DNA of 64,000 bases, taken from Terriglobales bacterium (lineage in GTDB: Bacteria; Acidobacteriota; Terriglobia; Terriglobales; Acidobacteriaceae). The position numbers and the translations under genes are program-made. Below the pieces are notes generated by a model, which saw nothing but the letters and a program-made list of their open reading frames with translations, was not told where the DNA came from and made no database searches. The DNA lies in NCBI GenBank assembly GCA_035651995.1, contig DASRER010000022.1, positions 1-64,000 on the forward strand. The letters run 5' to 3'. Positions 39,485 to 49,194 of the stretch are shown in pieces (positions within the stretch are counted from its first letter, which is position 1; each line of letters opens with the position of its first letter).

Positions 39485-42400
39485 ATGGCCTCAACCGGCA
39501 CTGAAAAAAGACTGGCTGCGCTCGCGGCCGGTGCTGCGCGTCCTGAAGACGCGTTTCAGCAGCTGTTGCTGCGGCTTTCGGCCGTGGCGGCCGAAGGCGG
39601 CGATTTCACTTCGCTCGTGCAGTTGCTGTGCGCTTACACCCGCCAGTTCTTTCAGGTGCACGGCGCCTACTACTGGAAGCTTCAGCCCGATGGATCGCTG
39701 CAAGGCGTGGCCGCCGAGGGACACATGGCGGCGCGGTTCGTGGGCAGCCACCTGCGCCTGAGCGATGCGTCGGTGGTGACGCGCGCCGTCCAGGAGCGGA
39801 AAGCGGTTTACGTCAACGATCCCGACGCCGCGCTTTATCCGATGGCGGCCGAGTACAACTCGCGCGCCGTCATGGCGGCCCCGCTGATCGTGAGCGGTGA
39901 AGCGATCGGCGCCTTTGTCCTGATTCACACTGCCGACCCCACCTTCTTTAATGAAGACCTGGCCGCCAAGGCGACGATCCTCGGCGCGGTCATGGCCACG
40001 CTGGTGGAAGCCTCGCGCATGGCGCAGGCCAGCCAGGAAGAGCGCCGGCGGTCGCAGGTGCTGGTGCGCTGCACGCGCGCGCTGCACTCCAGCCTCGACC
40101 GCCAGCAGGTGTTGCACGCCCTGGCCGAAGGAAGCCTGGAGCTGTTCCAGGGAAGGCTTGCCACCGCCGCCGTCGTGCAGGAAGGACGCGTGGCGAGCCT
40201 CGAGGTGGCCGGCGGACCGGCGGAGCTGGTGCAAGCCGTTCGCGGTGACATACCCGCTTGGTTGCGCGACGGCCTCATTGCCGTCGCCGAATCCGAAGGT
40301 CCGCAGTGGAGCGCCTTGCGCGGCCCATATCAACACCTGGCGCAGTTCACAGGCTCCTCGGAGGCGATCTCGGCGCCGCTGGCGAGCGGCGAGATTCGCG
40401 GGGCGGTGATCGTCTGCGCGGGCGAGAAGACGTTCGGCATTCCCGAGACCGCGCTGCTCGGCGTGCTCGGCGACTTCGGCGCCATGGCGCTGGCCAATTC
40501 GGAGCTCTATGCGCGCGCCAGCGCGCAGTCGCGCGAGCTGCAGCAGTTGCTCCAGATATCAGCGGAGTTGAGCGGAACCAGCGAGCTCGAGCGGTTCCTG
40601 CAGCAGTTCGTGGTGCGCGGCGCCGAGTTCCTGAACTTCAAGCGGTCGTTCATCGCTCTTTGCGAAGGCGACGGTTGTTACGTCCGCTGGGCGGCAGCCG
40701 ATGGCGAAGCGCGGCGCCAGGAGCGCAAGCTCACCGGACGCATCACCGACCGCGTTCTGCTGCAGAAAAAGCCTTACTGGACAGACAATCCTGCCGCCGA
40801 GCCCGACATGGACATCGCGGCGGTGCACGAGCTCGATGTCAGGCAGTACCTGGCGGTTCCGCTGCTGGGGTCGAACGGGGAGGCGCTGGGACTTTTCGGC
40901 GTGCTCGACAAGCGCGTGGGCAGCCCGATCAGCGCCGAAGACGTGCGTCGCGCGCAGGCGCTGGCGGCGGAAGTCGCGGTGGTGCTGGAGAGCACGCGCA
41001 ACCTGCACCTTTCCGAAGAGCATCGCCGGCGCGCGGAAAACCTGATGAGCCTGGCGCTGGAGCTGAATTCATCGCTTCGCCTGCCCGACTTCGTTCGCAG
41101 CTTCACGCTGCGCGCGGCTGACATGCTCGGCGCCCGCGCCGCCGCCCTGGCGCTGGCCCAGCGCGCCGCGCTGGAAACCGTCTTTTTCCACGACGAGGCG
41201 CATCCCGCCGACAAACAGGTCACGCGCCGCCTGAACCTGGCGCTGAGCGAGCTGGCCGCCAATCGCAGCGAAGAATTGATCCACGGAATGGCCGATGAAA
41301 TCTTCGGACCCGGATTGGCGGAGGCGCTCGGCTGGATGGACGTGACGCTCGCCCGCCTGACGGGAGCCGACCACGAGCTGATCGGCATGCTCTGCCTGGT
41401 GGACCGCGGCAAGTCGCCCACCGCCACGGACCGAAATCTCCTGCAGGCGCTCGGCGGGCACGCGTCGGTGGCGATGGAGAACGCGCGGCTGTTCTCGCGC
41501 ATCGCGCAGTCGAACAAGCAGTGGGCCGAGATCTTCGACGCCATCACTGACTACATCGTGGTCCACGACGAAGGCCACAAGGTGCTGCGCGTGAACCGCT
41601 CGCTGGCCGACTTCATCGGCGTGCGGCCGAATGAGCTGATCGGCGTGGGCATGCGCGCGCTCATCGCGATGGCGATCGAGCCGGGCGCGCAGCCGTGTCC
41701 GTTCTGCCGCGCCGGACAGGACGAGGATGACGAGTACATCCATCACGTCCTCGACCGGACCTACCTGGTTTCGACCTCGCGCATTCACGGGCCGCTGCAC
41801 GAGGGACGCCAGACCATCCACGTGCTGAAAGACATCAGCGACCGGCGCGAGGCGGAACGCCGCTATCGCGAGCTGTTCGACAACATCCAGGAAGGCCTGT
41901 TCTTCTCCGTGCCCGACGGCCGCTTCATCGAGGTGAACGACGCGCTGGTGCGCATGCTCGGCTACGACAGCCGCGAGGAGCTGCTGCAAACCGATCCCAA
42001 CACCCAGATCTACGTCTCGCCCGAGGAGAGCGCGAAGCTGCGGCAGGCGCTCGACGCGCAGGGCGTGGTGCGCAACTACGAACTCGCCATGCGCCGCAAA
42101 GACGGCACTCTGGTCCACACGCTGCAGAACACCTTCGCGGTGCGCGACCCGCAGGGCAAGCCGGCGCAGTATCGCGGGCTGATGCTCGACATCACCGAGC
42201 TGAAGAACTTCCAGTCGCAGCTCCAGCGCGAGCGCGACTTCAATTTAAAGATCCTGAACAACACGCTCAGCATGATCCTGGTGGTGGATACGGCCGGGCT
42301 CATTACCTACGCGAACCGCCGCTGCTTCGAGGCGGGCGGGTACACCGAGGCGCAACTGTTGGGGCGCAGGCTGGCCGAGCTGGTGGCGCCGTCGCGGCGC

Positions 42401-43309
42401 CAAGTGTTCGAGCAGGCGTTCAGCGCCGCCGTCGGCGGCCACCAGGGCGACAACCTGGAGCTGCAACTGGTGCGCGGGAGCGGCGGCCACGGGCACTTCT
42501 CCGTCAACCTCAGCCCGATGCGCGACGAGCAGGGCGCGGTCACCAGCATCGTCATCGTGATGACCGACATCACCGACGCCGCCATTCTCCAAGCGAAGCT
42601 GATGCACACCGAGAAGATGGCTGCCGTGGGCCAGCTCGTCTCCGGCGTGGCGCACGAGGTGAACAACCCGCTCACCGCGATTCTCGGCTTCTCCGACCTG
42701 CTGCTGGAAAAGCCCGATGTGCCGGAGAGCGCCAAGCGCGACCTGCGCATCGTGGTGCAGGAGGCGCATCGCACGAAAACAATCGTGCAGAACCTGCTGA
42801 GCTTTGCGCGGCAGGTGCCGCCGCGGCGCGAGCCGGTGCATTTGAATCCATTGCTGCGGCGGACGATCCAGTTGCGCTCCTACGACTTGGCGAATCACGG
42901 CGTGCAGGTGCGCGAGCAGTTCACCGAACCGCTGGCCAGCGTGATGGGCGATTCGCACCAGTTGCAGCAGGTGTTCCTCAACATTCTGAACAACGCCTAC
43001 GACGCGGTCCGCGAGAGCGGCCGCCAGGGACTGATCGACGTGCGCACGGCGCCGACGGAAAGCCACGTCGAGGTTGTGTTCTGCGACAACGGCAACGGCA
43101 TCGCGCAGCCGGAGCGCATCTTCGATCCCTTCTTCACCACCAAGGAAGTGGGCAAGGGGACCGGGCTGGGCCTGAGCATCTGCTACGGCATCGTGCGTGA
43201 GCACGGCGGCGAAATTCTGGCGGCCAACAATCCCGGCGGCAAAGGCGCAACGTTCACCGTCCGCCTGCCGCTCGCCGCGCGCCGCAGCCCAGGGGAAGCC
43301 GGGCCATGA
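39485..43309 (+). CDS. Multi-GAF, multi-PAS sensor histidine kinase
   Basis: 1274 residues, no transmembrane segment. About four GAF-like domains fill residues 20-670 (for example VTRAVQERKAVYVNDPDAALYP and AVPLLGSNGEALGLFGVL). Three PAS domains follow (about 680-1035); the first holds CPFCRAGQDEDDEYIHH, a Cys pair. HisKA has His1057 in SGVAHEVNNPLTAILGFSDL; HATPase has LNILNNAYDAVRE, CDNGNGI and GKGTGLGLSICYGIV. It is a soluble NtrB-like kinase that probably senses a small molecule or redox state. It overlaps the following receiver gene by 4 bp and should feed the sigma-54 activator. Confidence 0.93.
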   Translation: MASTGTEKRLAALAAGAARPEDAFQQLLLRLSAVAAEGGDFTSLVQLLCAYTRQFFQVHGAYYWKLQPDGSLQGVAAEGHMAARFVGSHLRLSDASVVTRAVQERKAVYVNDPDAALYPMAAEYNSRAVMAAPLIVSGEAIGAFVLIHTADPTFFNEDLAAKATILGAVMATLVEASRMAQASQEERRRSQVLVRCTRALHSSLDRQQVLHALAEGSLELFQGRLATAAVVQEGRVASLEVAGGPAELVQAVRGDIPAWLRDGLIAVAESEGPQWSALRGPYQHLAQFTGSSEAISAPLASGEIRGAVIVCAGEKTFGIPETALLGVLGDFGAMALANSELYARASAQSRELQQLLQISAELSGTSELERFLQQFVVRGAEFLNFKRSFIALCEGDGCYVRWAAADGEARRQERKLTGRITDRVLLQKKPYWTDNPAAEPDMDIAAVHELDVRQYLAVPLLGSNGEALGLFGVLDKRVGSPISAEDVRRAQALAAEVAVVLESTRNLHLSEEHRRRAENLMSLALELNSSLRLPDFVRSFTLRAADMLGARAAALALAQRAALETVFFHDEAHPADKQVTRRLNLALSELAANRSEELIHGMADEIFGPGLAEALGWMDVTLARLTGADHELIGMLCLVDRGKSPTATDRNLLQALGGHASVAMENARLFSRIAQSNKQWAEIFDAITDYIVVHDEGHKVLRVNRSLADFIGVRPNELIGVGMRALIAMAIEPGAQPCPFCRAGQDEDDEYIHHVLDRTYLVSTSRIHGPLHEGRQTIHVLKDISDRREAERRYRELFDNIQEGLFFSVPDGRFIEVNDALVRMLGYDSREELLQTDPNTQIYVSPEESAKLRQALDAQGVVRNYELAMRRKDGTLVHTLQNTFAVRDPQGKPAQYRGLMLDITELKNFQSQLQRERDFNLKILNNTLSMILVVDTAGLITYANRRCFEAGGYTEAQLLGRRLAELVAPSRRQVFEQAFSAAVGGHQGDNLELQLVRGSGGHGHFSVNLSPMRDEQGAVTSIVIVMTDITDAAILQAKLMHTEKMAAVGQLVSGVAHEVNNPLTAILGFSDLLLEKPDVPESAKRDLRIVVQEAHRTKTIVQNLLSFARQVPPRREPVHLNPLLRRTIQLRSYDLANHGVQVREQFTEPLASVMGDSHQLQQVFLNILNNAYDAVRESGRQGLIDVRTAPTESHVEVVFCDNGNGIAQPERIFDPFFTTKEVGKGTGLGLSICYGIVREHGGEILAANNPGGKGATFTVRLPLAARRSPGEAGP

Positions 43310-43710
43310 CGCAGGCGGCCAAAGCGGGGCGCCCGCCGGTCCTGGTGATTGAAGACGAGCCGTCGGTGATCGCCTTCATCCAGGCGGCCCTGGAGCGCAG
43401 CGGTTATCACGTGAAGCCGGTGGCCAGCGGCGCCGAGGCGCTCGAGTTGCTGCGCGACGGCGGCGATGACTATCTCGGCATCATTTCCGACATGCGCACG
43501 CCGGGAGGCGTGACCGGCGCCGACGTCTATGCCTGGATCACTTCGCACCGGCACGATCTGCTCGGGCGCGTTGTGTTCATCACCGGCGACACGGTGAACG
43601 AAGAGACGCTGCAACTGCTGCAGAGCACCGGCGCGCCCTGCATCGAGAAGCCGTTTCGCGTCCAACAGCTCATTGCCGCGGTGGAAGAAACCTTCGGGAG
43701 GAGCGCGTAG
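43306..43710 (+). CDS. Single-domain response regulator
   Basis: 134 residues. Receiver features: VLVIEDEPS acidic pocket, phospho-acceptor Asp62 in IISDMRTPGG, Thr in VVFITGDT, Lys in CIEKPFRV. No output domain. ATG overlaps the kinase stop by 4 bp and the stop abuts the activator ATG, so the three genes form one unit. It may act as a phosphate sink or as an intermediate in a relay. Confidence 0.88.
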   Translation: MTQAAKAGRPPVLVIEDEPSVIAFIQAALERSGYHVKPVASGAEALELLRDGGDDYLGIISDMRTPGGVTGADVYAWITSHRHDLLGRVVFITGDTVNEETLQLLQSTGAPCIEKPFRVQQLIAAVEETFGRSA

Positions 43711-45099
43711 ATGCACGACCTGAAGCTCCAGTTCCTGATCGTGGACGATCAGGTCACCATCCGCAAGCTGTGCACCACCATCGGCGCGTCGCTGGGCTTC
43801 GAGTGCGCTGAGGCGGAGAGCGCCGAGGCGGCGCTGGCCCACATCCAGAACAACTCGCCCGAGATCATCCTCGCCGACCTGCGCATGGACAACATGACCG
43901 GGCTGGAATTCCTGGAGAAGGTGAAGAAGGTCCTGCCGCGCACCGAAGTCGCCATCATGACCGGCTACGGCTCCATTGAGAGCGCGGTCACCGCCATGAA
44001 GCTGGGCGCGTACGACTACATCACCAAGCCCTTCCGCGTGGAGGAACTCAAGCTGGTGCTGGCGCGCATGGCGGAAAAAGTGCGCCTCGTGGCGGAGAAC
44101 GAATTCCTGCAGGCGCGATTGGATTCCGACATCGCGCTGCACGGCATCGTCGGCTCATCGCCCAACATCCAGGACGTGCTGCGCATGGTGGCGCGCCTGA
44201 AGGACACCCGCACCCCGGTTCTCATCAGCGGCGAAAGCGGCACCGGAAAAGAGCTGGTGGCGCGCGCCATCCACTTCCACGGCAGCTTTGCCAAGCGGCC
44301 GTTCGTGGCGGTGGATTGCGGCTCGCTGGTGCCCACGCTGATCGAGTCAGAGTTGTTCGGATACGAAAAAGGCGCCTTCACCGGCGCCCTGCGATCGAAG
44401 GAAGGACTGTTCCAGGCGGCGAACGGAGGAACGATCTTCCTTGACGAGATCGGCGAGCTGCCCCCGGAGATGCAGGCGAAGCTGCTGCGCGTGCTGCAGG
44501 AGAAAGAAGTGCGCCCGGTGGGCAGCAATCAGCGCGTGCCGGTGGACGTGCGCGTGATCGCGGCCACCAATCGCGACCTGGAAGCCGCGTATCGGCAGGG
44601 AACGTTTCGCAAGGACCTCTACTTCAGGCTGAATGTGGTGACCGTGCATCTGCCTGCGCTGCGCGAGCGCAAGAGCGACATCCCGGCGCTGGTGCACTGG
44701 TTCCTGGAGCGGCACGCGCCCGGCCGGCGCGTGCAGATCACGCCCGCGGCCATGCGCTGCTTCATGGACTACGAGTGGCCGGGCAACGTCCGCGAGTTGC
44801 AGAACTGCATCGAGCGCGCGCTGGCGCTCGGCAATCAGTCGCAGATCGACCTTGCCGACCTGCCCGCGCCGCTCTACACACCAGCCGCAGAAGCCGCGCC
44901 CGGCGAAGCCGTCCCTGGAAACGGCGCGACCGACCTGGAAGAACTGGAGCGGGTCACCATTCGTCGCGTCTTCGAGCAGGTGGGCGGCGACAAGACCCTG
45001 GCGGGCAAAATGCTGGGTATCAGCCGCGCCACGCTTTACCGGAAGCTGAAGCGCTACAACATCCTGCGCTCGGCGATGGAAGCCGGCGCGGGCAACTAG
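43711..45099 (+). CDS. NtrC-family sigma-54-dependent response regulator
   Basis: 462 residues. Receiver with Asp56 in IILADLRMDNM; AAA+ domain with Walker A GESGTGKE (174-181), the sigma-54 contact loop GAFTGA (221-226), Walker B GGTIFLDEIGEL, and the arginine-finger region FRKDLYFRLNVV; C-terminal Fis-type HTH (GDKTLAGKMLGISRATLYRKLKRYNI). It should hydrolyse ATP to open sigma-54 promoters from distal enhancer sites. Three candidate promoter-plus-palindrome pairs flank it at 39209, 45213 and 46452. A fourth copy of the site, degenerate, lies before the kinase gene. Confidence 0.95.
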   Translation: MHDLKLQFLIVDDQVTIRKLCTTIGASLGFECAEAESAEAALAHIQNNSPEIILADLRMDNMTGLEFLEKVKKVLPRTEVAIMTGYGSIESAVTAMKLGAYDYITKPFRVEELKLVLARMAEKVRLVAENEFLQARLDSDIALHGIVGSSPNIQDVLRMVARLKDTRTPVLISGESGTGKELVARAIHFHGSFAKRPFVAVDCGSLVPTLIESELFGYEKGAFTGALRSKEGLFQAANGGTIFLDEIGELPPEMQAKLLRVLQEKEVRPVGSNQRVPVDVRVIAATNRDLEAAYRQGTFRKDLYFRLNVVTVHLPALRERKSDIPALVHWFLERHAPGRRVQITPAAMRCFMDYEWPGNVRELQNCIERALALGNQSQIDLADLPAPLYTPAAEAAPGEAVPGNGATDLEELERVTIRRVFEQVGGDKTLAGKMLGISRATLYRKLKRYNILRSAMEAGAGN

Positions 45100-45409: not shown

Positions 45410-45676
45410 ATGCGTACCAGCGTTTCGATCAGCGGCACGGACCGCTGCGGCCGCGCTTTCAACGAGCAGACGCGCATCGAACTGGGCACGCCCACCGAGA
45501 TGATTTTCACCTCGGCGCTGCCGTTTGAGAGCGGGGACAACCTGCGCGTGATCAACAAAGACGGGTCGCTGGACGTTACAGTCACCGTGGTGGCAACGCG
45601 CTACCACAACGGCAAGACGGCGGTTGCGGCGCGCGTGCTCGATAGCGCCGACAGCCTGCCGATTCGTAAACATTGA
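45410..45676 (+). CDS. PilZ-like beta-barrel protein lacking canonical c-di-GMP residues
   Basis: About 88 residues from ATG 45410; the frame is open to 45194 but that part lies in the predicted leader. The layout (VSISGTDRCGRAFNEQTRIEL, FTSALPFESGDNLRVINKD, VVATRYHNGKTAVAARVLD) matches the short PilZ-like proteins common in Acidobacteriota. The RxxxR and D/NxSxxG c-di-GMP motifs are not present, so it may not bind the nucleotide. It is followed by the HisKA-only gene 17 bp later. Assignment is by pattern, so moderate. Confidence 0.55.
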   Translation: MRTSVSISGTDRCGRAFNEQTRIELGTPTEMIFTSALPFESGDNLRVINKDGSLDVTVTVVATRYHNGKTAVAARVLDSADSLPIRKH

Positions 45677-45692: not shown

Positions 45693-46391
45693 ATGCAGGA
45701 AAGCGACAACAAAGCGCAGATCGTGCTGATCGTGGCCGGCGATGAGAGCCAGGCGCTGGCGCTGCAGGGCCGCTGGAGCAGCGATGCCGCCGCGCCGCAG
45801 TTCGTTGTCGCCAGCGCTTCGCGGGCCGCAGCGCAGGCCGTGAAGTGCGACCTCGCCGTGGTCGCCGGCCTTGCCGGCGAGCGCCTCGATCTTCTGCTGC
45901 AAGCCCTCTCGCGCATCGCAAAACTTTCTGTCGTGTGCTTCGCGGAGTCAGCCCAGACGCGCGAATACGGCGCGCCAACCATTGTGCTCCAGCAGCATGA
46001 AGACTGGATCGATACGGCCGTCGTTCTTGGCCGGGAAATTCTTCGCCGACAGCGGCTGGCGGAGATGGCGCGCCGGGCCGAAGAGGCCGCCGCGGCGTCG
46101 CTCGGTCATGCCACGGTGGGGCGCTACGTGCTGGAGATGCGTCACAACGTGAACAACGCGCTTACGTCGGTGCTCGGGAATGCCGAACTCCTGCTGATGG
46201 GCGAGGCGTTGGCGCCAGAGGTCCGCGCCCAGGTCGAGATCATCCACAGCATGACGATGCGCATGCACGAGATCATGCGGCGGCTCGCGTCGCTCGCGTC
46301 GGAAATGCGCTTCGCCACCGCCCCGTCTCAGTCTGAGACGCGCTTTCCACCCGAGGAACGGCGGTCGCGGCGCCTTCGCCACAGCGCCTAA
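45693..46391 (+). CDS. HisKA-only protein with pseudo-receiver-like N-terminus
   Basis: 232 residues from ATG 45693. Residues 8-118 have the alpha/beta rhythm of a receiver (IVLIVAGDESQAL, DLAVVAGL, SVVCFAESA) but no phospho-acceptor Asp pocket. Residues 120-205 form a helical hairpin with His151 in MRHNVNNALTSVLGNAELLL, closely matching HEVNNPLTAILGFSDLLL of the kinase at 39485. No ATPase domain follows; the rest is a short basic tail. This suggests a phosphotransfer or docking protein, Spo0B-like in concept. The 3' end carries an activator palindrome (46324-46340) within the coding sequence. Confidence 0.65.
   Translation: MQESDNKAQIVLIVAGDESQALALQGRWSSDAAAPQFVVASASRAAAQAVKCDLAVVAGLAGERLDLLLQALSRIAKLSVVCFAESAQTREYGAPTIVLQQHEDWIDTAVVLGREILRRQRLAEMARRAEEAAAASLGHATVGRYVLEMRHNVNNALTSVLGNAELLLMGEALAPEVRAQVEIIHSMTMRMHEIMRRLASLASEMRFATAPSQSETRFPPEERRSRRLRHSA
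46324..46340. promoter_or_regulatory. Palindromic activator site inside the 3' end of the HisKA-only gene
   Basis: CGTCTCA-GTC-TGAGACG, perfect 7-bp arms. Its centre is 122.5 bp upstream of the -24 GG of the promoter at 46452, the same distance as for the che operon. Confidence 0.76.
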
Positions 46392-46451: not shown

Positions 46452-46469
46452 TTGGAGTGCTGATTGCAT
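46452..46469 (+). promoter_or_regulatory. Candidate sigma-54 promoter of the second chemosensory operon
   Basis: TTGGAGTGCTGATTGCAT, with GG at 46454-46455, 10 bp, and GC at 46466-46467; the -12 TTGCAT is perfect. Start would be near 46479, upstream of the CheW ATGs at 46497 and 46524. This argues against a start at 46464. Confidence 0.7.
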
Positions 46470-46523
46470 TCTGCACGGCCAAGGACTAGTGTCGGCATGC
46501 TTTTTTCCACTGCACAGGCTGAC

Positions 46524-46859
46524 ATGAACGAGCCACGAGGTCGCTGGTGTGTTTTTCGCGCCGGGAGAGAGCTGTGTCTTCCCGCGGAGCAGGTTCATGA
46601 GATCCGCGCCTGGCCGGCGGTGGCCTGTTTGCCGCTCGCGCCTGGCCGCGTGCTGGGTTTGTTTGCGCTGGGCGATGAAGCGGTGCCGGTGATCGCAGTC
46701 CAGGCGGGCGATGGAGATTCCCCGGAATTCACGCATGTCCTGATCGCGGGCCGGTCCAGGGCGAGGTTCGCGATTGCGGCATGCGGGCCCCGGCTGGTGG
46801 AGCAGGAAACGCCGCCGGCGGAAGTCGTCGACACAAAGGGAATGCTGGCTGAACTGTGA
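46524..46859 (+). CDS. Short CheW-like protein
   Basis: 111 residues from ATG 46524 (MNEPRGRWCVFRAGRE); ATG 46497 is in frame. The CheW pattern is recognisable (CVFRAGRELCLPAEQVHEIRAW, GRVLGLFALGDEAVPVIAVQ) but compact, about 30 residues shorter than normal, and the second barrel is reduced. It begins an operon with a degenerate receptor, a CheR and another CheW-like gene, but no CheA. It may couple these to the CheA at 33317 or act without a kinase. Confidence 0.7.
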   Translation: MNEPRGRWCVFRAGRELCLPAEQVHEIRAWPAVACLPLAPGRVLGLFALGDEAVPVIAVQAGDGDSPEFTHVLIAGRSRARFAIAACGPRLVEQETPPAEVVDTKGMLAEL

Positions 46860-46886
46860 GTGGTTGTGCGGGGGCGGGAGGAAAAA

Positions 46887-48323
46887 GTGAAAGGGCGGCT
46901 GAGTTCGGTCCTTTGGCGGACGATCGGAATTAACCTGGCGGCGTTGTTGGCGGTATTTGCGCTGGCCTACAGCGCGGGCGCGCGCAGCGGCGGCTTGTCG
47001 CTCGTCGACTTCGGCGCGCTGCCATTTGCTGCCGGTCTGCGCTTATGGATTGCGGCGCTCGTGGCAGTGATGGTTCTGTTCTCGCTGCTGTGGCTGGCGA
47101 CGCGCATCCTGAAGCCGCTGAACGAGCTGACCACCTACGCGGAGACGATGGAGTGGCGCGAGGATTCCGGCACGCGGCCGGTTTCCAGCGACGATGATTT
47201 CGCTTTTCTTGCGGACCGCATAACCGAGCTTGCCCGGCGCATGGCTGCCGCCACCGCCGATCAGCAGGAACTGGCCTCGCTGCGGCAGCGGATCAGCGAA
47301 TTCTCTGTGGCCGCATCGCAGGCGGCGAGCGGCGACCTCAGCGCCCGCGGCGTCGGCGGCGATGACGACCTGGGCCGCGCCATTGCCAACTTCAATCGCA
47401 CCCTGGAAGCGGCGGGCGTGGTGTTGCAGTCGGGCCGCAAGCTGGCGCAGCAGCTCGCCGGCAATGCGGCGGATGCGCTCACCCTGTCGCAACACTCGGG
47501 GCGCACCGTCGGTGAGCAGGAGCGCGAGGTGGCCAACGCCACCGAAGCCTTCGCGGCGCTGCCGCCCTCCATCAAGCAGGTGAGCGACAACTTCGACGCG
47601 GTGCTGCGGGCTTCACAGCAGGCCGCCGGCGCGGTGCAGCAGGCGCACAAGCAGATCACCGGCACGCGCGGCGACCTGGACCGCATGGGCGCGGCGCTGG
47701 AGTCGGCGCGGCAGGCGGTGGAGAAGCTGCAGCAGTCCTCCGATTCGGCGCTGCAGATGCTGCATCCGCTGGCGCAGGTGACGGAAAACGCAACCCTGCT
47801 CGCACTGAACGCGGCCATCGAGTCGGCGCGCGCCGGCGCGGCCGGGCGCACGTCGCCGCTGGCCGCCGAGCGTTTCCGCGAGCTGGCCGAAGACGCCGCC
47901 AGCATCAGCCGCGGCATCGCGCAATTGATCTCCGGGATGAGCGAAGAGAGCGCGGCGCTGAAGCGCGCTCTGGAAAGCGAGCGGCGTGCGGCCGAGGCGT
48001 CGTCGCAGAACTCGGGGCAGGCGGCACAGGCGCTGGAAGGCGCGCTCGCGGCAGTGCAGGAGGCGAGCGCGCGCGCGGAAGTGATCACTGTTGCCTGCGC
48101 TCGCCAGGCCGACGCGGCGCGCACGGTGAGCGCGGCGCTGCAATCGGCCACCGACCTGCTCCGCCTCGCCGGCCAGCACGCGCGGCGCGGCACACTCAAC
48201 GCCGAGCAGGCGGAGAAGCTGGCGCAGCAGCTCGCGGCGGCGCTGGCCGGGCTGCGCGCCTCACCGCTGGAAACCGCCCTCCTGAGTGACGCAGCCAAGT
48301 CGGCCGCCGGCAACAACGCGTAA
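46887..48323 (+). CDS. Divergent methyl-accepting chemotaxis protein
   Basis: 478 residues from GTG 46887, which has GGGAGG upstream; GTG 46860 is the longer option. Two helices (about 13-33 and 50-74) enclose only ~16 external residues, so no periplasmic ligand domain exists. A HAMP-like segment follows. The hairpin tip keeps [20 protein letters not shown], but the flanking E-Q-T-N is changed to TENAT and the downstream [12 protein letters not shown] reads RTSPLAAERFRELA. CheA/CheW contact may therefore be weakened or different. It could sense from the cytoplasm or membrane. Confidence 0.78.
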   Translation: MKGRLSSVLWRTIGINLAALLAVFALAYSAGARSGGLSLVDFGALPFAAGLRLWIAALVAVMVLFSLLWLATRILKPLNELTTYAETMEWREDSGTRPVSSDDDFAFLADRITELARRMAAATADQQELASLRQRISEFSVAASQAASGDLSARGVGGDDDLGRAIANFNRTLEAAGVVLQSGRKLAQQLAGNAADALTLSQHSGRTVGEQEREVANATEAFAALPPSIKQVSDNFDAVLRASQQAAGAVQQAHKQITGTRGDLDRMGAALESARQAVEKLQQSSDSALQMLHPLAQVTENATLLALNAAIESARAGAAGRTSPLAAERFRELAEDAASISRGIAQLISGMSEESAALKRALESERRAAEASSQNSGQAAQALEGALAAVQEASARAEVITVACARQADAARTVSAALQSATDLLRLAGQHARRGTLNAEQAEKLAQQLAAALAGLRASPLETALLSDAAKSAAGNNA

Positions 48324-48327
48324 CACG

Positions 48328-49194
48328 ATGAGCGAGCGCAAGGCCAAACTCGACGACGCCCAGATCGAGGACCTGGTCAGGCGCCTGGAGGGGCGCTCCG
48401 GCCTGGTTTTCGAAGGTGAGCGCCGCGCATGGCTGGCCGCCCAGGCGGAAGACTACGCGCGCTCCCGCCGCGTCGCGCCGGCGGACCTGTTGCGCGCGGT
48501 TGGCGCGTCAGCCGCCGAGTACGAGGGCCTGCTCGATCGCGTGCTCGCGTCGGAAGGAAAGTTTCGCCGTTACGCGGCCATCTTCGACGTCTTCGAGCGC
48601 CGCGTCCTGCCCGAGATGCACATGAAGAAATTCTGGGACCGGCCGCGCGCGCTGCGCGTGTGGAGCGCCGGGTGCGGAGCGGGCGAGGAGGCGTATTCCA
48701 TCGCCATCAGCGTTCTGGAGACGCTCGCGTCGCTCGACGCCTGGAACATCGAGCTGCTGGGCTGCGATCTGAGGCGGCACGCCATCCAGACGGCCGAGCG
48801 CGGCGTTTACCCGCGCAGCGCCTTCAACTCCATGCCGCCCGAGCAGATCGAGAACTACTTCGCGCGCGCCGGAGAAATGCTCATGGTCAAGCCGCGTCTG
48901 CGCGGAATGGTGAAGTTTGCATGCGCCAACCTGCTCGAGGGCGAATACATGGGGCGCTTCGACTGCATCTTCTGCCTCGATGTGCTCGGCTGGCTGGCGC
49001 GGCCCCGCCGCGCGCATCTGCTGGAGCGCTTCCACGAGCACCTGGAGCCGGGCGGCTACCTGCTGCTCGCGCCCGGAGAGGCGGCCACGATGCAGTCGTA
49101 CGGGCGCTTCGCCGCGGTGGAGCGCGAGGGCGAAATCGTGTTGCAGAAGCCCGCGGGCATCAGCCGCAACCTGGCCGTCGCCGGAGGCATGTGA
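48328..49194 (+). CDS. CheR-type methyltransferase, divergent
   Basis: 288 residues from ATG 48328. The SAM site is clear (RVWSAGCGAGEEAYSIAISVLETL, IELLGCDLRRHAIQTAERG), as is the later FDCIFCLDVLGWLARPRR, where the usual CRNVLIYF is altered. The N-terminal domain lacks the NET-SFFR loop seen in the other CheR and reads GKFRRYAAIFDVFERRV. Substrate recognition is probably different, most likely the degenerate receptor encoded just upstream. Its stop overlaps the next start (TGATG). Confidence 0.8.
   Translation: MSERKAKLDDAQIEDLVRRLEGRSGLVFEGERRAWLAAQAEDYARSRRVAPADLLRAVGASAAEYEGLLDRVLASEGKFRRYAAIFDVFERRVLPEMHMKKFWDRPRALRVWSAGCGAGEEAYSIAISVLETLASLDAWNIELLGCDLRRHAIQTAERGVYPRSAFNSMPPEQIENYFARAGEMLMVKPRLRGMVKFACANLLEGEYMGRFDCIFCLDVLGWLARPRRAHLLERFHEHLEPGGYLLLAPGEAATMQSYGRFAAVEREGEIVLQKPAGISRNLAVAGGM

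Follow-up and report, generated by a model that had tools for sequence, protein, structure and literature searches.

What can a protein do that looks like a sensor kinase without its ATP-using half, fused to a dead receiver? One such protein, here called HisKA-only, is encoded by a soil acidobacterium within the 64,000-nucleotide stretch of DNA that we analyzed as a whole (the window). Its reading frame, 45693-46391 (+), is open, contains RHNVNNALTSVLGNAELLL, and places a His at residue 151, and the ATG at 45693 is consistent with the start region in orthologues. The gene and its parts are as follows:

45693..46391 (+): HisKA-only gene, encoding a pseudo-receiver and a DHp hairpin in 232 aa (ORF, Pfam, orthologues)
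45717..46061 (+): pseudo-receiver, residues about 9-123, with Ala replacing the phospho-Asp (AlphaFold, VIA-align, alignment)
46104..46307 (+): DHp helical hairpin, residues about 138-205, the best-conserved part (AlphaFold, Pfam, identity comparison)
46143..46145 (+): His151 codon, His in 70/73 orthologues (alignment)
46155..46160 (+): codons of Asn155, at the HisKA phosphatase position (72/73), and of Ala156, where kinases have Pro and orthologues never do (alignment; roles from PMC3510030)

The genes that surround it are the following:

39485..43309 (+): GAF/PAS histidine kinase with full HisKA and HATPase_c (Pfam)
43306..43710 (+): single-domain response regulator with Asp/Thr/Lys intact, the best co-occurring gene (Pfam, co-occurrence)
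43711..45099 (+): NtrC-like sigma-54 activator with REC, AAA+, and Fis HTH (Pfam)
45410..45676 (+): small conserved protein, PilZ-like by eye only and with no Pfam match, ending 16 bp before the HisKA-only start
46464..46859 (+): CheW (Pfam)
46860..48323 (+): methyl-accepting chemotaxis-type protein (Pfam)
48286..49194 (+): CheR, which in many relatives lies directly downstream of HisKA-only (Pfam)

The ORF at 49194 is CheW-like solely through its similarity to CheA.

The first-pass annotation had read the protein as a HisKA domain lacking an ATPase domain and preceded by a receiver-like fold devoid of its Asp, and both parts of this reading were borne out. Residues 148-202 match HisKA (PF00512; E=3.4e-6, above the gathering score), as do 14/14 full-length orthologues (best E 1.4e-8). 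Pfam found no HATPase in the protein and, because the next gene downstream is CheW, we rejected a split kinase with its ATPase encoded next door. The Spo0B helical-domain and Hpt models gave no match at E≤1 in the window protein, for which Pfam returned HisKA alone, and both are absent among the Pfam families matched by the 14 orthologues; by its sequence, HisKA-only falls outside the Spo0B family. Origin from the cluster's own kinase is unsupported as well, the better matches being other kinases of the same genome.

The AlphaFold model based on 14 orthologues (mean pLDDT 84) contains (i) a receiver-like beta-alpha fold to about residue 100, with pLDDT mostly above 80 at the N-terminus; (ii) an unbroken helix from 105 to 169 followed by a helix from 175 to 212, which yields a receiver, one continuous helix, and a DHp hairpin; and (iii) about 20 mostly low-confidence residues after the hairpin, with no degenerate ATPase-like C-terminal domain. 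For residues about 6-123, 49 of the best 50 VIA-align matches are receivers or receiver-containing proteins, including Spo0F, DivK, PhoP, and KdpE (Z 12-13.6; rmsd 2.7 over 116 residues), the lone non-receiver being a de novo designed protein. The receiver assignment rests on predicted structure, because Pfam saw no receiver domain at the N-terminus and an hhalign comparison between the family and the cluster receiver yielded no useful alignment (probability 1.2); a profile search of solved-structure sequences returned one designed protein and nothing else. At the phospho-Asp position after beta-3, aligned by sequence pattern and not by superposition, the window has Ala, and Gly occurs in 60/72 informative relatives and Asp in four. 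HisKA-only is a conserved, kinase-dead DHp protein behind a dead receiver. Two further observations concern this domain. In G003 the pseudo-receiver is gone, leaving a 123-aa DHp with the His and both Asn residues. In genus g239, two His-less orthologues with a full N-terminus, as well as the His-bearing G517, carry an Asp on or adjacent to the pseudo-receiver site that is Gly in relatives.

HisKA-only was found in 75 of the 150 genomes sampled from its own taxonomic family and at 80 named loci, mostly MAGs, from Terriglobia/Acidobacteriales, Candidatus Sulfotelmatobacter, and Candidatus Korobacter; one of the carriers is a MAG named Candidatus Korobacter versatilis (L137). Its cross-genus identity of 31-43% indicates conservation above chance, with a mean pairwise identity of 67% in the DHp versus 35% in the pseudo-receiver. 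Residues of the H-box were counted over 73 informative sequences of the genome-search set other than the window, and His conservation was counted on this set only, because the patterns used to scan the named loci contain His. Absence of His151 from orthologues had been named beforehand as a possible refutation of the phosphotransfer proposal, and for most of the family it was not realized: the position is His in 70/73, with Ser, Thr, or Ile in the remaining three. The next residue (H+1) is acidic in 0/73, being Ser, Gly, Asn, Thr, or Ala (Asn in the window). H+4 is Asn in 72/73 (Asn155 in the window) and Asp in 1/73, and H+5 is Ala in 65, otherwise Thr, Cys, or Leu, and Pro in 0/73. The proposed resemblance to the kinase motif also held, the cluster kinase of the window carrying HEVNNPLTAILGFSDLLL; HE-x-N-N-P-L was found in 45 of 49 matching cluster-kinase ORFs, a count given in this form because the search pattern itself contained Glu and Pro. 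At H+12, HisKA-only has Asn whereas the cluster kinase has Phe, and docking specificity may therefore differ between the two. Among the named loci, L258 is an outlier with Glu at H+1.

The roles of these positions are known from CrdS (PMC3510030), in which (i) the acidic residue after the His is required for kinase but not phosphatase activity; (ii) the H+4 Asn is required for phosphatase but not kinase activity, an Asn-to-Asp change abolishing the former; and (iii) the H+5 Pro-to-Ala mutant P376A has lowered kinase activity and has lost much phosphatase activity, with near wild-type phosphotransfer. Taken together with the orthologue residues, these roles indicate that the HisKA-only family has lost kinase-only features and kept receiver-facing ones; the first-pass annotation had noted neither that the Glu and Pro of kinases are gone nor that the phosphatase Asn is retained. 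One possible reading, to which we give a minor share of our confidence, is a dedicated phosphatase in which Asn155 would position water for hydrolysis of the phosphorylated receiver or NtrC and His151 would just assist, much as the DHp of EnvZ or NtrB is by itself sufficient for phosphatase activity (PMC3510030). The absent Glu and the near-invariant Asn, which all three His-less orthologues keep, would suit such an enzyme, and CrdS H371A retains most of its phosphatase activity (PMC3510030), but the Ala at H+5 mimics precisely the P376A change, some orthologues carry the Asp that abolished CrdS phosphatase at H+4, and PhyT, initially termed a phosphatase, showed no such activity (PMC5898713).

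The His is lost in three genomes of one genus (G431, G488, and G534), in all of which the receiver Asp is intact. Pairwise comparisons of the His-less genes gave dN values of 0.28-0.43, or 0.10-0.26 when restricted to the DHp, whereas dS exceeded 1.2 or was saturated, and since dN/dS is well below 1, a His-independent function exists in that genus. Among the named loci, the three orthologues of genus g239 without the DHp His lie at L246:17882-18559, L248:1690-2385, and L257:13641-14072. Two genomes of another genus (G293 and G499) keep the kinase, receiver, activator, and Che genes and lack HisKA-only, with 257 bp and 195 bp, respectively, and no gene remnant at the expected site; in G459, the gene is reduced to a short tail remnant. 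An obligatory relay is disfavored by the loss from the full cluster in G293 and G499 together with the three His-less orthologues under purifying selection. The persistence of the latter would be explained if the kinase-dead DHp did no phosphate chemistry itself and simply bound receivers, in competition with the kinase. Conservation within the protein is highest in the DHp face, and PhyT likewise sequesters its regulator (PMC5898713). Docking of this kind would nevertheless leave the near-invariance of both catalytic residues in the rest of the family beyond its needs, and we regard it as unlikely.

Which receivers might HisKA-only serve? In relatives, the genes usually run kinase, single-domain receiver, NtrC-like activator, small protein, P528, and HisKA-only, followed by either CheR alone or RR2-CheW-MCP-CheR-CheA-CheB. 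Upstream sequence of at least 7.5 kb was available at 55 loci, of which 48 have P528 and 47 have NtrC; P528 lies directly upstream of HisKA-only in most relatives. CheR occurs in 42 of the 55 loci with 7 kb downstream. The window locus is atypical in being without P528, RR2, and CheA; its genome has two P528 paralogues on another contig (G000:C42), and an ORF resembling CheA lies near 33.4 kb. Over 150 genomes, which as relatives are not independent and for which p-values should therefore not be read at face value, HisKA-only (75 genomes) and the single-domain receiver (78 genomes) share 71 genomes with a phi of 0.85. The corresponding values are 0.81 for P528, 0.78 for NtrC, which is low because of the strict cut-off used for it, and 0.33 for the chemosensory receiver RR2. 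The linkage to the receiver (43306) and activator (43711) that the first-pass annotation named is thus backed by neighborhoods and co-occurrence alike. The sister family f2 has a short HisKA protein with a Rec-like N-terminus, whose DHp is homologous to that of HisKA-only (hhalign probability 97.9 over 52 columns) and keeps HE-x-x-N-P; its gene directly follows an NtrC homologue, and neither a kinase nor a receiver lies beside it. In G496 (g255), HisKA-only adjoins the receiver and NtrC was not detected, and in G447 just a 64-aa HTH remnant lies between receiver and HisKA-only. From these arrangements, the single-domain receiver and NtrC both remain candidate partners. A chemosensory partner (RR2, or the CheA/CheB receivers), with HisKA-only as a CheY-phosphatase-like protein or phosphate sink, would fit the position of RR2 as the next gene wherever a full Che set follows and the retention of HisKA-only beside RR2 and Che genes in G447 and G496. 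However, an RR2 orthologue is absent from 52/75 genomes with HisKA-only; because the window genome is one of them, RR2 cannot be a universal partner, and we consider this reading highly improbable.

Roughly half of the family members sampled keep HisKA-only next to the same receiver genes, which implies that it most likely shuttles or removes phosphate there and does not make it. We regard His-dependent shuttling of phosphate between receiver and activator, possibly with phosphatase activity, as its most likely action, at about an even chance. The protein would descend from a Rec-controlled histidine kinase through loss of the ATP-binding domain, and its DHp would form a dimer that does not phosphorylate itself from ATP. 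This dimer would dock onto receivers encoded by its neighbors, namely the single-domain receiver (43306) and/or the NtrC-like activator (43711), and phosphoryl groups would pass reversibly between them via His151, in the manner of PhyT or Spo0B, with Asn155 able to help dephosphorylation. HisKA-only would thereby tune the kinase-receiver-activator pathway without being an obligatory link in it. The relay between receiver and activator proposed in the first-pass annotation therefore keeps the support of linkage and of a conserved His, but not in an obligatory form, given the two genomes that lack the gene and the three that lack the His.

By analogy, HisKA-only most likely works like PhyT/Spo0B. 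PhyT (PhyP) of Sphingomonas melonis acts in a relay, Pak-SdrG-PhyT-PhyR, in which its HRxxN DHp, attached to a dead ATPase, moves phosphate from a single-domain receiver to an output regulator (PMC5898713). PhyT is a precedent for the shuttle because a single-domain receiver, a DHp protein, and an output regulator all sit in the present cluster. Both proteins have a DHp His, a nonacidic H+1, an Asn at H+4, and no working ATPase; both are encoded at the locus of an output regulator; and the single-domain receiver with which PhyT works has a counterpart here. PhyT differs in being membrane-bound, in retaining a degenerate ATPase domain, and in having no pseudo-receiver described in the passages covered, and its output regulator, PhyR, targets a sigma-factor switch whereas the output of the present cluster is an NtrC-like activator. 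The same source describes Spo0B and ChpT as dimeric, kinase-derived DHp-type His phosphotransferases between receivers (PMC5898713), a type that HisKA-only is predicted, from sequence and model, to share. Unlike these, it lacks a Spo0B helical-domain match and a degenerate C-terminal ATPase-like domain, and its gene is lost in relatives that retain the pathway. The conserved His, the DHp hairpin, and the absence of a working ATPase are those of a dimeric DHp phosphotransferase; the HATPase_c and the acidic residue after the His that mark a histidine kinase are both missing; and H+4 carries one of the residues (Asn/Thr) of HisKA-type phosphatases.

The pseudo-receiver points to a further parallel. 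LvrB of Leptospira (8vc9), the prototype Rec-controlled histidine kinase (Rec-DHp-CA), is among the top Foldseek matches, and its receiver alpha-5 runs on through the signaling helix into DHp alpha-1 without a break (PMC13269768), as in the HisKA-only model; this layout was absent from the first-pass annotation. LvrB-type kinases differ in having a catalytic domain and a phosphorylatable receiver Asp. The dead receiver of HisKA-only probably controls the conformation of the DHp through the continuous helix, with partner binding in place of phosphorylation as the trigger. A more ambitious and quite tentative proposal is that this family, with no ATPase remnant, is a bifunctional shuttle and phosphatase between the single-domain receiver, the NtrC-like activator, and, for some members of the clade, a chemosensory array; that the dead receiver is a nonphosphorylated sensor switching the DHp; and that the lineage that dropped the His retains phosphatase action or docking only. 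Joint control of the NtrC-like CrdA by a kinase and a chemosensory cluster in CrdS-CrdA-Che3 of Myxococcus xanthus is a possible parallel, as is CheS3 of Rhodospirillum centenum, a DHp protein inside a che cluster with N-terminal receivers, one of them without Asp; unlike HisKA-only, CrdS and CheS3 are full kinases.

The origin of phosphorelay proteins from kinases is an open question, for which one acidobacterial family supplies natural variants: a homologue in f2 whose kinase H-box is complete, many proteins without the kinase-only residues, three His-less proteins, proteins with Asp at H+4, a protein with no pseudo-receiver, and clean gene losses. With these, it becomes testable which DHp residues serve transfer, phosphatase activity, and docking. 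HisKA-only is also a case for control of a DHp by a pseudo-receiver without phosphorylation, and a 2025 review calls the switching of bacterial pseudo-receivers a mystery (PMC12632262).

Several minor observations concern the neighbors and relatives. P528 (e.g., L038:10464-12050 (-)) is conserved and confidently all-helical over about 290 residues, followed by a variable disordered tail; Pfam returned nothing for it, and no PDB fold matched it with confidence. A sigma-54 promoter scan stayed at chance level. In three genomes, the NtrC-like activator lacks the AAA+ sigma-54 domain and consists of a receiver and a Fis-type HTH, RegA-like (L051:17055-17777 (-), L176:4504-5139 (+), and L252:2640-3239 (+)). 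The orthologue at L128:6218-6826 and G472:C100 is apparently split in two ORFs, which may be an assembly artefact because the public record shows a stretch of X at that place, standing for masked or unknown bases. The CheR downstream of HisKA-only is 360-390 aa long at L104:9741-10844, L110:9768-10859, and L074:2210-3373, and its match to the CheR model is broken into three, which suggests that insertions split the methyltransferase domain in that lineage. Finally, other acidobacterial families have stand-alone HisKA ORFs of 111-134 aa with a full HE-x-x-N-P box and without a receiver (L184:7213-7617 and L185:6740-7075).
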